Below are positions 8,659-41,373 of a stretch of 41,373 nt of DNA, piece by piece. How positions within the stretch are numbered: position 1 is the stretch's first letter; the number at the start of each line of letters is the position of its first letter. Position numbers and translations under genes: made by a program. The DNA is from a virus, in the IMG/VR virus record IMGVR_UViG_3300042402_002425, positions 1 through 41,373 of that record. One strand, given 5' to 3'. The notes under the pieces were generated by a model. It saw only the letters and a list, made by a program, of their open reading frames with translations, made no database searches and was not told the origin of the DNA.

Positions 8659-9080
8659 GGTTGGCTAGCCTCAAAGCAATCGTCGCAGAGGTCTACCGAT
8701 TCCTCATAGGCGTTCTCAAAGCCGTTCCAACCATACTTGAAGGGTCGAGGCTTGACGTTCTCATGCTTCCACTTCGGGTAGTGCTTGGTGTTCTCGCAGG
8801 TACGCTCCTCCTCGATAACTCCACGATCAACGGCGCACTCCTTGCAGCAGGCATACTTCACATGATCACCCTGAGAATCGGTTCCCTCCTCCCAGATTGG
8901 ATCAGATACTTTCCGATTTACGCACCAAGCGCAGTACCCTTCGTCTTTACCCCAGACTTCCTGCGGCTCAGACTCTTTATGCTCCTTCTCAATCTTCTTG
9001 CGCAAGGCCTTCTTGACATCGGCAGCTACCTTCTTGTTGCTGCTGCTCACGATAATGAAGTCATCAAAGTCGCCGCTCAC
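8655..9080 (-). CDS. Cys-rich putative zinc-binding protein
   Basis: 141 residues, GTG start overlapping the upstream stop. Three paired cysteine sites (CAWC near residue 50, CCKEC near residue 78, CDDC near the C-terminus) and several histidines suggest two or more zinc sites. The N-terminal third is basic and helical (KKVAADVKKALRKKIEKEHK). Function not recognised. Confidence 0.65.
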   Translation of the reverse strand: MSGDFDDFIIVSSSNKKVAADVKKALRKKIEKEHKESEPQEVWGKDEGYCAWCVNRKVSDPIWEEGTDSQGDHVKYACCKECAVDRGVIEEERTCENTKHYPKWKHENVKPRPFKYGWNGFENAYEESVDLCDDCFEASQP

Positions 9081-9466
9081 TTGACCACCTGATACACCTT
9101 TCCCGCGATCTTCGCTTCGACAATCGCGTCTGTTGGGATTGACTTATACATAGCCGAGCGTGGCTCCCAGACGATCATGAGGTTCATGGACTCAGGATCA
9201 TACGCTCGTGCTCCACCCTTGAGGTGCTTCTTGACCCCCAAGCGGCAGGTCATCGTGCGCTTCTCGCCCGTGCTGCGCTTGGTGAAGACGATGGTGAAGA
9301 ATCTTCCCATCGACTTCTTGATCTTCTCAAGCAAGGCCTCGGTGCTGACGCGGTTGTCGTGCTGCTCCTCATCGGGGCAGCGCGGCGTTGCGTCGGCTGG
9401 GTAATAGGCTGCGGCCTCAAACATCTTGCCGCAGTTGTGGCATCGGTACGCTGTTGTGAGCTTCAT
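9077..9466 (-). CDS. Zinc-ribbon plus Sm/SH3-like domain protein (WYL_2/DUF2693-like)
   Basis: 129 residues from ATG 9466, preceded by AGGAGGGGAAACT. The N-terminus has CHNC and a later cysteine, a possible zinc ribbon. The C-terminal half (FTIVFTKRSTGEKRTMTCRL, then GVKKHLKGG, YDPES, NLMIVWE, IPTDAIVEAKIAGKVYQV) follows a small beta-barrel common in phages and known to me as WYL_2 or DUF2693, an Sm/SH3-like fold often in nucleic-acid-related proteins. Role here unknown. Confidence 0.6.
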   Translation of the reverse strand: MKLTTAYRCHNCGKMFEAAAYYPADATPRCPDEEQHDNRVSTEALLEKIKKSMGRFFTIVFTKRSTGEKRTMTCRLGVKKHLKGGARAYDPESMNLMIVWEPRSAMYKSIPTDAIVEAKIAGKVYQVVK

Positions 9467-9603
9467 AGTTTCCCCTCCTGTGGGTGTTCGCAGTTTTCTG
9501 ATTGCTCTAACTCGTAGCACGCATTATCCCGAACGGGATTGTCTACACACTCGCAGACCACCTCGTTTCTATTGCACTCTTTACACCAGACCATCGTGCT
9601 CAT
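9463..9603 (-). CDS. Small Cys-rich protein
   Basis: 46 residues from ATG 9603. Six cysteines, including CKEC near residue 7 and CEC near residue 18, suggest a zinc knuckle. It ends in EGKL, encoded by the ribosome site of the next gene (GAGGGGAAACTATGA). Start and stop both overlap neighbours by four bases, which strongly supports it as a real gene. Confidence 0.65.
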   Translation of the reverse strand: MSTMVWCKECNRNEVVCECVDNPVRDNACYELEQSENCEHPQEGKL

Positions 9604-10720: not shown

Positions 10721-10750
10721 ACCTTAGAATACCCCCCATAGATTTGTCAA
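10721..10750 (-). promoter_or_regulatory. Leftward promoter of the helicase operon
   Basis: Reading the minus strand, TTGACA (10750-10745, exact consensus) and TAAGGT (10726-10721) are 18 bases apart; TCTAAG at 16 is an alternative -10. It is 44 bases before the first start codon. The -35 box overlaps the stop codon of the RlpA-like gene, right at the edge of the CpG-rich island. Confidence 0.55.
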
Positions 10751-11259
10751 TACCCCCGCCGTACACCTCCCAACTCGCTCACCTCGACGTACATGATGCC
10801 ACGCGAGAGCGGAACCCCAAGGGCGACCCAGAGATGCGGACTCAAATCTATGACGCGGCTCGCGCTAGTCCACGGCTTCCGCAAGGCCTTCCATGCGCCG
10901 TGGCAATAATCGCGCACGACGGCGATGACACAAGTTGTGCCACCCCGTACACACACCCGCACGCGGTACGGCTTGGCGTAGTAGGTGAACGTGCCGACGG
11001 CGGCATAGAGCACAAGCTCGCCGCCTCGACCGCCCTGCTCAACGCTCTTGTAGGGCGTGCAGGTATCGGTACGCCCATACACCGACACCCCTTGCGGGCA
11101 TCGTGCGCCGTACCACGTAGCAACGCCAGACATAGGTACGCCGTGCGGCGTGCGGGGAGGCTCCTCAGCCCCCCGCACGCCGTCGACGTAGCTCAGCATG
11201 ATGCACGCAACGATGAGGGCGGCCATACCATAGGCCGCCCACACCGCCCGATTATGCAC
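10747..11259 (-). CDS. RlpA-like double-psi beta-barrel protein with N-terminal membrane anchor
   Basis: 170 residues from GTG 11259; GTG 11280 is also possible. One N-terminal hydrophobic segment (AAYGMAALIVACIMLSYVDG) is a signal or anchor. The outer domain starts with MSGVATWYGARC and later has AVVRDYC and SRVIDLSPHLWVALGVPLSR plus MYVEV, following the RlpA order (G-x-A-x-WYG, V-x-D, R-x-IDLS, LG). Bacterial RlpA proteins bind or cleave glycan strands of peptidoglycan. Six cysteines could form disulphides outside the membrane. As part of an early-type leftward unit it could locally open or remodel the wall, or compete with a host RlpA. It is the only gene of the CpG-rich island with a recognisable domain. 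Confidence 0.7.
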   Translation of the reverse strand: MHNRAVWAAYGMAALIVACIMLSYVDGVRGAEEPPRTPHGVPMSGVATWYGARCPQGVSVYGRTDTCTPYKSVEQGGRGGELVLYAAVGTFTYYAKPYRVRVCVRGGTTCVIAVVRDYCHGAWKALRKPWTSASRVIDLSPHLWVALGVPLSRGIMYVEVSELGGVRRGY

Positions 11260-11602
11260 GCGCCGCCTCGACGCTTGCACGTAGGGTAGCGACGGCGTAG
11301 CGATCCGCCTCCCGCCCCGCCGCCATACCCTCGCGGTAGGCGCGGATCACGGCGAGGAGCTCCCGCCTCGATACGTAGCCGCCCGATACCGCACGCACGC
11401 CGCCGTGCTCATTGATCACCTGCACGAGCTGCCAGCCGCCATACGCCCCCATGACGTAATAGCGCCCGATAATCCACGCGCCCGCGCCGCCCTCGCCGTA
11501 GCGGTACGCCGTACCATCAGCCTCGTGCGGTTCTAGCCCTGCCCATAGATTTAGACCGCGCAGCGCCCCGTCGATGTCGCGCTGTGTGATTCTATCCGCC
11601 AT
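11252..11602 (-). CDS. Hypothetical protein of the CpG-rich island
   Basis: 116 residues from ATG 11602, preceded by a GGGGGTGTAGATC site. It contains no lysine, phenylalanine or cysteine, a strong sign of the island's base bias. The part RYYVMGAYGGWQLVQVINEH then GGYVSRRELLAVIRAYREG looks like a small beta hairpin plus helix. No family recognised. Confidence 0.6.
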   Translation of the reverse strand: MADRITQRDIDGALRGLNLWAGLEPHEADGTAYRYGEGGAGAWIIGRYYVMGAYGGWQLVQVINEHGGVRAVSGGYVSRRELLAVIRAYREGMAAGREADRYAVATLRASVEAARA

Positions 11603-12270: not shown

Positions 12271-12289
12271 GGCGGGGATTCTCCCCGCC
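12271..12289. repeat. Hairpin repeat, copy A
   Basis: Arms GGCGGGGA and TCCCCGCC around a TTC loop, all 8 pairs perfect. It is in the 5' leader of the gene starting at 12251, and is one of four related hairpins in the island. Confidence 0.6.
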
Positions 12290-12704: not shown

Positions 12705-12961
12705 GATCGCGCCCCCTTCGTGCTATCGGCTACGGGGCGGGATTCTCCCGCCCTCGCGCCGTAGGTGTCGACATAATCGGCGGGCAAGAAGCTTGCATAG
12801 GCTACGCCCTGCAAGAATCCCCGCCGCGATTCTAGCGGCAACGTTGCCGCCTCGCGCCGTATCGCCTCGATAGCGGCGGCCTCGCCGCCATCGCGCCGCG
12901 CTACTAGTAGCCTATTAGCCGCCGCCCGCGCTTGCGTGCGGATAGCTTCGCCCGTGCTCAT
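12701..12961 (-). CDS. Hypothetical helical protein of the CpG-rich island
   Basis: 86 residues from ATG 12961, with ATGA overlaps on both sides. Alanine/arginine-rich helices (AIRTQARAAANRLLVARRDG) then a more polar C-terminus. Its last codons run through hairpin copy B, which encodes AGESRP. Function unknown. Confidence 0.55.
   Translation of the reverse strand: MSTGEAIRTQARAAANRLLVARRDGGEAAAIEAIRREAATLPLESRRGFLQGVAYASFLPADYVDTYGARAGESRPVADSTKGARS
12735..12753. repeat. Hairpin repeat, copy B (inside a coding region)
   Basis: GGGCGGGA-TTC-TCCCGCCC, 8 perfect pairs. It is preceded by TGCTATCGGCTAC, which copies C and D also carry in similar form, so the repeated unit is longer than the hairpin itself. 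Confidence 0.6.
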
Positions 12962-13296: not shown

Positions 13297-13372
13297 AATC
13301 CTATTCTCCCCTCATGCTATCGGCTAAGGGGGCGGGATTCTCCCGCCCCCCGCCCTTCGATTGTAGCCCCTA
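13294..13372. repeat. Leader repeat with hairpin copy C
   Basis: Intergenic block with a perfect 10-pair hairpin (GGGGGCGGGA at 13328-13337, TTC, TCCCGCCCCC at 13341-13350) flanked by CTATTCTCCCCTCATGCTAT on one side and CTTCGATTGTA on the other. Copy D at 13676-13742 has the same parts in the same order. It forms the 5' leader of the gene starting at 13296. Confidence 0.65.
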
Positions 13373-13678: not shown

Positions 13679-13742
13679 GATTCTATTCTCCCCTCATGCT
13701 ATCGGGGCGGGATTCTCCCGCCCCCTTCGATTGTACCCCTAG
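13676..13742. repeat. Leader repeat with hairpin copy D
   Basis: Same layout as copy C: CTATTCTCCCCTCATGCTAT, then GGGGCGGGA-TTC-TCCCGCCCC (13704-13724, 9 perfect pairs), then CTTCGATTGTA. It is the 5' leader of the gene starting at 13678. Confidence 0.65.
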
Positions 13743-13900
13743 CACGCGTATCCCGCAAGGGGATCGCACGGGATCACCAGCGCCCCGATCGCCCCGATAA
13801 TGAGCGCCGCGCATAGTAGGCGGCGGATCATACGGGCGCGGCGCTCCGCCGCTCGATGCTCCGCAAGCGTGCGGAGCGATACGATAGGCCGCCCCCTCAT
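13739..13900 (-). CDS. Small membrane protein of the CpG-rich island
   Basis: 53 residues from ATG 13900, whose ATGA overlaps the upstream stop. A basic N-terminal helix (EHRAAERRARMIRR) leads into one hydrophobic segment (LLCAALIIGAIGALVIP). A longer open frame in another register covers the same bases (13683-13931) but has no membrane or domain logic, so I prefer this one. Confidence 0.55.
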   Translation of the reverse strand: MRGRPIVSLRTLAEHRAAERRARMIRRLLCAALIIGAIGALVIPCDPLAGYAC

Positions 13901-14142
13901 GCGTTGCACGCTTCGCCGCTACCATGCGCAAGCGCCGCCGCTTCGAGCTCGCCCGCGCGGGCCTCGATCATCGCAAGCGCGGCGCCCGCCGCGTTTACCG
14001 CTTCGCGGGCTACCGCTAGCGCCTCGATGAAGCGCCCTTGGCGATGCTGCAGCGCGTTGCATAGTCCGCACGCCTCGCGTTGCCGCTTCGCCTCGAGCGG
14101 GCTAGGGTATTGCCCCCGCGTATCGGGTATCCCCGTGGCCAT
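13897..14142 (-). CDS. Hypothetical helical protein, first gene of the leftward unit
   Basis: 81 residues from ATG 14142, preceded by GAAGGGGGTAATC. It has CGLC near residue 26 and a long alanine/glutamate helix (EALAVAREAVNAAGAALAMI). Being promoter-proximal, it would be expressed first in this direction; a role in takeover or regulation is only a guess. Confidence 0.6.
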   Translation of the reverse strand: MATGIPDTRGQYPSPLEAKRQREACGLCNALQHRQGRFIEALAVAREAVNAAGAALAMIEARAGELEAAALAHGSGEACNA

Positions 14143-14187: not shown

Positions 14188-14216
14188 AGCCTACACCCCC
14201 TGCACGGGATCGACAA
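14188..14216 (-). promoter_or_regulatory. Leftward promoter of the whole leftward unit
   Basis: On the minus strand TTGTCG (14216-14211) and TAGGCT (14193-14188) are 17 bases apart, matching in spacing and -10 form the promoter at 12299-12327. The 20 bases next to the start codon at 14142 are identical to those at 12251. Confidence 0.5.
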
Positions 14217-14249
14217 TAGGGGCAAAGGATAAGATTCCGCAACAATCCA

Positions 14250-14271
14250 GAATAGAACGGGCGTTCTATTC
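14250..14271. promoter_or_regulatory. 22-bp palindromic operator with a LexA-like core
   Basis: Arms GAATAGAACG and CGTTCTATTC are perfect inverted repeats around GG. The core GAAC-GGGC-GTTC matches the GAAC-N4-GTTC pattern of LexA/DinR boxes in Gram-positive bacteria. It lies 34 bases upstream of the -35 box of the leftward promoter. No repressor gene is recognised in the phage, so a host protein may bind it. Confidence 0.6.
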
Positions 14272-14389: not shown

Positions 14390-14500
14390 ATCGGCGGGGG
14401 TAGCTTGCGGGGGTAGCCCCTGCACGGGTACGGGGTAGGCCTACGGGCTAGGGTATCGGGTACGGGTAGGGGGTAGCCCTGCAACGGGTAGGGGGTATCG
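14390..14500 (+). repeat. G-rich GGGTA tract with G-quadruplex pattern
   Basis: Many runs of three to five G separated by TA, TAC or TATC. The segment 14451-14473 reads G3-TATC-G3-TAC-G3-TA-G5, which meets the usual rule for an intramolecular G-quadruplex on the plus strand. A short repeat GTAGCCC(C)TGCA(A)CGGGTA occurs twice here. Confidence 0.55.
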
Positions 14501-14524
14501 CCTACCCTGCCCCCCTCCCCCCCT

Positions 14525-14542
14525 CGACAAGGCCGCTTGTCG
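14525..14542. promoter_or_regulatory. 18-bp palindrome, copy 1
   Basis: CGACAAG-GCCG-CTTGTCG, perfect 7-base arms. The second copy is centred 23 bases away. It could be an operator, partition-like site or origin iteron. Confidence 0.6.
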
Positions 14543-14547
14543 CTGGC

Positions 14548-14565
14548 CGACAAGGGCGCTTGTCG
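14548..14565. promoter_or_regulatory. 18-bp palindrome, copy 2
   Basis: CGACAAG-GGCG-CTTGTCG, with the same arms as copy 1 and a one-base change in the spacer. Only five bases separate the two copies. Conserved arms with a changing spacer suggest protein dimers bound side by side. Confidence 0.6.
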
Positions 14566-14755
14566 TAGGTTGGCACGATTTATGCCACCCCCCTCCCCCC
14601 GTAGCGTTTTAGAACATGCGTTCGGTTTGTGTAGGAACACCCAACCCCGCAATGAACACCCCTTCTGATAAGGCCACCCCCCTTTTGACTAGGCTTTCAC
14701 CCCTATTTGTTAACGCAGCTCTGTTAAGTTGTGCTCGACAGCCTCCCTCATAAAG

Positions 14756-14771
14756 ATTAAGACATCTTAAT
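14756..14771. promoter_or_regulatory. 16-bp inverted repeat upstream of the rightward promoter
   Basis: ATTAAGA-CA-TCTTAAT, perfect 7-base arms, ending 10 bases before TTGACA (14782). The position fits an operator or activator site for the rightward unit. Confidence 0.45.
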
Positions 14772-14781
14772 GATGTTATTT

Positions 14782-14813
14782 TTGACATAAACCCCCCGTT
14801 TTTCTGGTTATAT
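14782..14813 (+). promoter_or_regulatory. Candidate rightward promoter of the late unit
   Basis: Exact TTGACA at 14782-14787, then an AT-rich TGGTTATAT at 14805-14813. The spacer to TTATAT is 20 bases, longer than ideal, so it may work as an extended -10 (TGG before the box) or need an activator. It is the only strong candidate before the 32-kb rightward unit. Confidence 0.4.
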
Positions 14814-14835
14814 GGGGGAGACACAGAGGGGGCAA

Positions 14836-14899: not shown

Positions 14900-14929
14900 T
14901 TAAGAATGGGGAAACCCAAGGAGTTAAAA

Positions 14930-15415
14930 ATGCCAAAGGGCAAGATTTCTATGGGGAAGAAGACCCCAGCACCAATCGGGAAGCAGACACAGCGAGGTCG
15001 GGCCTCAATCTACAAGGGAACGGACAAGACGACCAATAAGAAGGATCGAGTACGTTCGGGAAGCCAGGATGTAATCTACGCTGACGGAAGCAGGTTCAAG
15101 ATGGTCCCACTAGAGATTGGTGGTGGTCGTCCAGGAGCGGCAGGGAAGAACTCCCGCGTGTATTCCGAAAAGAAGGGCAACACGATTACATCTTACACGA
15201 ACACAAACAGTCCGTATATTAACCCAAGAACTGGTGGCCTTGAGACATTCCCATATCACAATCGAACCATCACCACCCTGGGAGAGGGCGGTCGACGCGA
15301 GTCGGTACTCAAGCGTTCTGGTCAGAATAATAGCGCCAACTATGTTGTGAGCGAAACCCAGTTGAACCGTGGTTCAGGCACCCGCAAGACGGGCGCGAAG
15401 AAGAAGGCGTACTAA
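14930..15415 (+). CDS. Basic hypothetical protein, first gene of the rightward unit
   Basis: 161 residues from ATG 14930, six bases after a strong AAGGAG at 14918-14923; the ATG at 14906 lacks a good ribosome site. Very basic, with lysine-rich ends (PKGKISMGKKTPAPIGK, TRKTGAKKKAY) and a polar Asn/Thr-rich centre. It could bind DNA or RNA or be a virion protein packed with DNA. No family recognised. Confidence 0.7.
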   Translation: MPKGKISMGKKTPAPIGKQTQRGRASIYKGTDKTTNKKDRVRSGSQDVIYADGSRFKMVPLEIGGGRPGAAGKNSRVYSEKKGNTITSYTNTNSPYINPRTGGLETFPYHNRTITTLGEGGRRESVLKRSGQNNSANYVVSETQLNRGSGTRKTGAKKKAY

Positions 15416-18471: not shown

Positions 18472-18960
18472 GTGACTGACCTCGCGCCAGTCCTGACGGG
18501 CTGCCACGTCTGCCGAAGCCCTCTGGTTGAGGCCATCAACAAGAAGATGCGCGACGGAATGTCCGATGTGCAGCTCTCCAAGTGGCTTGCAGACGCTGGT
18601 CACTACATCTCCCGCATCACCCTTGGCAAGCACAAGCGTGACCACCTTACCGAAGACCACGAACACAAGCGTATCTCCGCAGTAAAGCACCTACAGAAGC
18701 AGAAGAAGACCATCAAGGCAACGGGCGACCTGGCAATGCTGGTGCGAGACTACGTACACAGCGCGGTGCAGGACGGGGATTTGACCCCATCGCTCGCAGA
18801 GGGCCTTCGCGCACAGGAAATGATCGACCGACGCCAGGAAAAGGGCGCAGATCGAGAGGTTGCACTGCAACTAGCGGGCATCTTGGGCGGCGGCGCTACC
18901 TACCAGATTATTGAAGCGACAGAAATCAAGCCATTAGGGGTCGGAGAATCGGAGTCATGA
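18472..18960 (+). CDS. Putative small terminase subunit / HTH protein
   Basis: 162 residues, GTG start. It has a CHVC pair at residues 11-14 and then [40 protein letters not shown], a helix-turn-helix-like arrangement also seen in small phage packaging proteins (a short zinc knuckle before an HTH). The rest is helical and could oligomerise. It lies 3.4 kb before the large terminase with lysis and sugar genes between, so the assignment is tentative; a transcription regulator is the alternative. Confidence 0.45.
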
Positions 18961-41235: not shown

Positions 41236-41373
41236 ATGATTGGGGTCGTAGGTACTGGGCAAGTAGCCCAACACGTTCTTGCAGAGCTGCGCCGTCGGGC
41301 GCTGCCACATATTGTCTTCTCACGCTCGGCTGCGCCTATTGGCGAGTCGGGCGTTTCTGTTTTGTACACGGAA
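41236..41373 (+). CDS. RmlD-like reductase (5' part of the gene at 2-835)
   Basis: ATG at 41236 follows GAAAGGGTCGAA, a purine-rich ribosome site also seen before two other starts in this genome. It encodes the Rossmann nucleotide-binding start MIGVVGTGQVAQ of the 281-residue reductase and runs off the window end; the frame continues at base 2. Only 30 bases separate it from the metallophosphoesterase gene upstream, so both are probably on one transcript. Confidence 0.85.
   Translation, partial: MIGVVGTGQVAQHVLAELRRRALPHIVFSRSAAPIGESGVSVLYTE
41247..41373. repeat. Terminal direct repeat, right copy (circular junction)
   Basis: Exact copy of bases 1-127. It lies wholly inside the RmlD-like gene that starts at 41236, which continues at the left end of the window. 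The unique genome length is therefore 41,246 bp. Confidence 0.95.

Follow-up and report, generated by a model that had tools for sequence, protein, structure and literature searches.

The only control region of an uncultured phage, situated between its divergent left (early) and right operons, contains an array of three palindromic elements arranged in steps of approximately 22.5 bp: two dyads with identical arms (hereinafter A-type) and a third dyad of a different sequence (B-type). Comparison of this region across related phages points to an operator-like array for a dimeric DNA-binding protein, most likely one encoded by the host or a phage regulator that is not conserved, a reading to which we assign a probability slightly above one half (about 0.52). 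A dimer of a sequence-specific protein would bind each dyad, probably cooperatively and on one face of the helix, and the bound array would set the expression of the left operon and perhaps that of both operons.

Genome organization and the divergent control region

The window, that is, the entire stretch of DNA analyzed here, comprises 41,373 bases and corresponds to a complete virus contig (IMGVR_UViG_3300042402_002425). Positions 1-127 and 41247-41373 are identical, and this 127-base overlap of the ends indicates a complete circular genome of 41,246 bp. Plus-strand genes extend from 14906 round the circle to ~6244, and minus-strand genes, which include a DnaB-like helicase and many small unknown genes, run from 14142 down to 6598. 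These gene directions identify the non-coding segment 14143-14905, from either side of which the two operons start, as the single divergent control region of the phage. The genes that orient the map are:

13897-14142, minus strand: first gene of the left (early) operon
14906-15415, plus strand: first gene of the right operon
22258, plus strand: large terminase
23823, plus strand: portal
33381, plus strand: major head protein
36863, plus strand: Dit
1788, plus strand: Cas4-like exonuclease
2459, plus strand: Erf

The Pfam and PHROGs scans of the gene products yielded no match to an integrase or to CI/Cro, ParA/ParB or O-like proteins; the early products scanned showed no recognizable DNA-binding regulator domain, and no regulator gene adjoins the array. 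The lack of a ParA/ParB-like match among the scanned products speaks against a partition site, one of the functions proposed in the first-pass annotation. The major head protein shows ~30% matches to phages of Streptomyces and Bacillus, which hint at Gram-positive hosts; the terminase, when queried for host clues, gave no match, and the tandem pattern and the SprT query returned nothing from the bacterial genomes searched.

The segment 10500-14500 is an early accessory island with a GC content of ~67%, compared to ~55% elsewhere, and a gene set that varies strongly between relatives; it encodes, in particular, an RlpA-like double-psi barrel protein (10747-11280). A hairpin with an identical TTC loop, GGGGCGGGA-TTC-TCCCGCCCC, occurs at four mostly intergenic places in the left operon (12271-12289, 12735-12753, 13328-13350 and 13704-13724).

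The palindrome pair and the larger array

The array and the tracts that border it consist of the following elements:

14510-14523, plus strand: left C-tract, CCCCCCTCCCCCCC
14525-14542, unstranded: A-type dyad 1, CGACAAG-GCCG-CTTGTCG, kept in relatives
14548-14565, unstranded: A-type dyad 2, CGACAAG-GGCG-CTTGTCG, 23 bp from dyad 1
14571-14587, unstranded: B-type dyad, TGGCACGATTTATGCCA, of the form TGGCAC-N5-RTGCCA, 22.5 bp from dyad 2
14588-14600, plus strand: right C-tract, CCCCCCTCCCCCC

The two A-type dyads had been described in the first-pass annotation as tandem 18-bp palindromes with identical arms and different spacers in a non-coding region, and both the coordinates and the non-coding location are exact. 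The 7-base arms are the same in both 18-mers, the spacers differ (GCCG and GGCG), and the 5-base linker CTGGC places the centers 23 bp apart. A search of the complete circular genome, as the annotation had proposed, yielded exactly two perfect matches to CGACAAG-N4-CTTGTCG and no further match below 3 mismatches; two matches with 3 mismatches correspond to the chance level. Single palindromes of the 7-N4-7 form are common in this genome (7 observed against 3.6 expected from Markov-1 simulations), but a tandem pair with the same arms appeared in none of 300 such simulations, so the pair is not expected by chance.

The third dyad, overlooked in the first-pass annotation, lies in register with the pair, which means that the two palindromes belong to an array of at least three dyads. 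The tract that had been named a G-quadruplex is a C-tract on the plus strand that occurs on both sides of the array, with the G-runs on the minus strand.

Conservation in related phages

Relatives were collected in two ways that do not depend on the palindromes: a scan with the conserved stretch to the right of the array yielded 16 contigs, and a protein query with the neighboring SprT-like gene yielded 67 loci. Of the 16 contigs, every one extending across the site has two or three copies, apart from G006 and the more distant G014. The element is present also in G018 (66% identity in the SprT-like protein) and, with four sites, in G016 and G017 (63%), and is absent from other relatives at 61-69%. 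The proposed search for the arms in relatives thus revealed 2-4 copies per carrier recovered without the palindrome, with fixed arms and the core GACAA-N6-YTGTC. No A-site was found elsewhere in the genomes searched at up to 2 mismatches.

The consensus, derived from 34 A-sites in 15 genomes, 14 of which were found through flanking DNA or a protein and not through the palindrome, is GACAA[G28/C5/T1]-N4-C[T23/C11]TGTC, with 9 of the 12 arm positions invariant and the spacers free to vary. Four carriers selected by the motif itself (L135, L138, L139 and L144) contribute only to the spacing and variant data and to the comparison of L139 with G006. Half-site changes affect mostly the right arm (11 of 34), and in L144 it is the left arm that carries this change; the occurrence of both GACAAG..CCTGTC and GACAGG..CTTGTC is compatible with a symmetric half-site GACARG.

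Centers of adjacent A-sites are 22 bp (8 cases) or 23 bp (16 cases) apart, with no other value, even though the search patterns allowed 18-29 bp. In eight phages, this one among them, the last A-site is followed after 22.5 bp by a B-type dyad of the form TGGCAC-N5-GTGCCA (the A-B distance is 22.5 bp in 8 of 14 cases). In five relatives it is replaced by a C-type element, GTTGCGGATTCTTAAY, at 21.5 bp (5 of 5 A-C distances), and in other phages a B-type dyad precedes the array, the left B-A distance being often 43.5-44.5 bp. Fixed arms, free spacers, 2-4 copies and a 22-23 bp register together predict a sequence-specific, probably cooperative dimeric DNA-binding protein, in line with the dimeric regulator suggested in the first-pass annotation.

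Related contigs whose ends fall within or beside the C-tract/palindrome region are unusually numerous (L010, L014/L030, L033, L035, L065, L074, L077 and others); these ends may reflect assembly breaks at the G/C-tracts, strain variation or physical genome ends.

Other elements of the control region

Several further elements accompany the array:

14228-14243, minus strand: left copy of the C-type element (GTTGCGGAATCTTATC on the minus strand), by the probable left promoter
14250-14271, unstranded: 22-bp palindrome GAATAGAACG-GG-CGTTCTATTC, containing GAAC-N4-GTTC, near the probable left promoter
14486-14507, unstranded: inverted repeat GGGTAGG-N8-CCTACCC, which includes the conserved GGGGGTATCGCC
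14612-14623, unstranded: second LexA-box-like site, GAACATGCGTTC
14756-14771, unstranded: palindrome ATTAAGA-CA-TCTTAAT, in the conserved right leader
14782-14814, plus strand: probable right-operon promoter TTGACA-N21-TATATG

The promoter scan found no sigma-70-like promoter, and the right-operon promoter is proposed from conservation: its TGGTTATA stretch is kept even where the flanking C/G runs are not. The motif TTGWCA-N21-TATAWG upstream of the right operon has a spacing that is unusually long for a sigma-70 promoter and is kept in distant relatives. The array is located ~220-280 bp from either probable promoter, with the conserved promoter-like stretch ~220 bp away, and at this distance it would not be a classical promoter-overlapping operator.

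The GAAC-N4-GTTC motif within 14250-14271 resembles a LexA-type box. This site and the one at 14612-14623 are the only two GAAC-RNRY-GTTC sites in the genome; they flank the array and are partly kept in relatives, which suggests, at the level of sequence, that the control region is wired to the SOS response. The dyad CCC(C)TGCA(A)CGGG is present in three copies (at 14197, 14417 and 14477), all in the control region and none elsewhere in the genome. Two additional candidate elements were considered and rejected. A sigma-54 promoter (TTGGCACGATTTATGCC, resembling GG-N10-GC) is contradicted by GTTGCGGATTCTTAAC, which holds its place in five relatives, and by the dyad symmetry of the element itself. 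As to DnaA boxes, the A-type arms share only TTGTC with the actinobacterial TTGTCCACA.

An exchangeable cassette and its candidate ligands

A discriminating comparison is that between L139, which has the array, and G006, which lacks it. These phages share core DNA, the helicase gene included, at 97% identity across 3.0 kb and 96% across 1.3 kb, and the 210 bp directly to the right of the array are 98% identical; at the protein level, the helicases are 99% and the early Zn-ribbon proteins 97% identical. Likewise, the late proteins of G016 (four sites) and G006 (none) are ~97% identical, including the homologue of the HTH-like protein 18472-18957. The first-pass annotation had named, as evidence against its reading, the loss of the palindromes from close relatives that retain the flanking genes; one such case was observed, G006 versus L139. 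Judging from these alignments, the array behaves like a component of a control cassette that is swapped as a module together with neighboring early accessory genes, so that its loss would reflect replacement of the cassette rather than absence of function.

The same comparisons bear on the identity of the ligand. Among the early and island gene families compared, none occurs in every site-bearing phage while missing from the site-less ones, so the suggestion that an unknown island protein binds the array is not supported. Near-identical core proteins with and without sites, combined with the lack of an early gene that tracks the sites, make a core phage ligand unlikely and leave a host-encoded protein, or a phage protein not conserved across the group, as the more likely candidate. 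Two specific candidates were dismissed on these grounds: the early Zn-ribbon protein (9077-9520), near-identical in L139 and G006, and protein 18472-18957, near-identical in site-plus and site-minus phages. The latter contains invariant C-x2-C and H-x3-H motifs and an HTH-like N-terminal domain in its AlphaFold model (mean pLDDT 63, ~80 for the N-terminal domain; the best VIA match, to 7s03, is weak, with Z 3.9), so that a small terminase or a regulator is a possible identity for this protein.

Relationship to known systems and alternative explanations

A close formal parallel is with CI/Cro operators of the 434/lambda style, which likewise consist of two or three tandem dyads ~20-24 bp apart between divergent transcription units, with the core ACAAG-N4-CTTGT and 23-24 bp steps; the A-A distance of 22/23 bp and the third dyad at 22.5 bp fit this layout. 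In the unrelated temperate phages L015 (24 bp) and L017 (23 bp), a Cro/YdaS-like gene adjoins tandem ACAAG-N4-CTTGT and stands opposite a gene for an XRE-type or CI-like (HTH_3 + Peptidase_S24) repressor, and the same tandem motif is found near HTH genes in L013, L018, L022 and the L005 group. The present array differs in that the Pfam and PHROGs scans revealed neither an adjacent CI- or Cro-like HTH repressor gene nor an integrase, in its location >200 bp from the probable promoters, and in the second site class (B/C) in register. LexA/SOS boxes are of the GAAC-N4-GTTC type and resemble the A-type dyads in their combination of arms with an N4 spacer and in the presence of LexA-like sites in the same control region, but the arms are different (GAAC versus GACAAG) and the LexA-like sites, at 14250 and 14612, are separate from the array. 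The recurrence of the B/C element and of the LexA-like palindromes in the control region that holds the array favors operators, whereas the lack of an adjoining regulator gene and the absence of the array from G006, despite 96-98% identical flanks to L139, count against them. An array of this kind is thus a known type of element; in the literature searched, to a limited extent, no operator matching the arm sequence and no report of this array with its third dyad were found.

The main alternative, though unlikely, is that the dyads serve as iterons for an initiator that loads the DnaB-like helicase encoded in the left operon, binding them as lambda O does its own tandem imperfect inverted repeats. 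In lambda, an iteron is an imperfect inverted repeat of 19 bp, and two iterons with the adjacent AT-rich region are enough for unwinding (PMC7466680). The tandem arrangement of two or more imperfect inverted repeats of 18-19 bp and the variation of copy number between 2 and 4 agree with such a role. Moreover, in the unrelated L134 (4776-5942), L136 (3-485), L146 (246-890) and L147 (2560-3291), tandem GACAA-N6-YTGTC is contained within genes whose products match PHROGs replication initiation/O-like proteins, and it probably marks the origins of those phages; L143 has similar-looking repeats without a PHROGs match. Here, in contrast, the dyads are outside any initiator gene, no O-like gene was recognized among the scanned products, C-tracts rather than an AT-rich stretch flank the array (the nearest AT-rich sequence is ~180 bp to the right), GC skew at 4-fold sites gives no consistent origin signal, and the sites are missing from G006 with its near-identical helicase and Zn-ribbon protein. 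The near-identity of the cores with and without the array disfavors an essential core origin and weakens the origin-binding protein proposed in the first-pass annotation, although a replaceable origin could still be accommodated. Because unrelated phages use the motif as operators or as iterons, its shape does not by itself decide.

That the dyads act as tandem RNA hairpins (a terminator, antiterminator or stability element) in the left-operon leader appears improbable. Both strands of the 51-base core fold better than shuffled sequences (z -4.4 and -5.7), and the commonest arm variant retains a G-U pair on the minus strand; however, compensatory arm changes are missing from the 34 sites, where it is the primary sequence that stays fixed, and DNA recognition accordingly fits better than an RNA hairpin. 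The right-arm T to C changes (11/34) suggested a hairpin on one strand, an idea countered by site 3 of L144, where a change in the other arm breaks minus-strand pairing. Furthermore, in the predicted fold the two dyads pair with one another by way of their spacers, which lack complementarity in relatives such as G001, no T-run of an intrinsic terminator follows the dyads on either strand, and Rfam gives no match. It is very unlikely that the array is a packaging or genome-end site (pac/cos) recognized by a small terminase such as protein 18472-18957: the clustering of contig ends and the HTH-like domain of this protein would fit, but the ends are spread across hundreds of bases, a pattern that strain variation and assembly breaks at G/C-tracts would produce, 7 kb separate the array from the gene for the large terminase, and the protein is ~97% identical in G016 and G006. 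Finally, a recently duplicated palindrome without function, carried along with the cassette, would account for the lack of palindromes in G006, yet is very improbable, given that the arms are kept, the spacers have diverged and the 22-23 bp spacing is fixed in phages only ~60-70% identical in the neighboring protein.

Implications

Since GACAA...TTGTC tandems serve some phages as repressor operators and others as origin iterons, likeness of motifs cannot alone assign function. For the operator-like array described here, a precise predicted binding motif is combined with a natural presence/absence pair, L139 and G006, which separates a host or accessory ligand from core phage proteins. Tentatively, the multi-site array (A-A-B/C, in 22-23 bp register, flanked by C-tracts) might be a new type of array that, across a family of uncultured phages, wires the divergent operons to a host DNA-binding protein, with the cassette being swapped among phages that are otherwise nearly identical as the host or the regulatory wiring changes. 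The position of the array would mark the master control point of this uncultured phage group.
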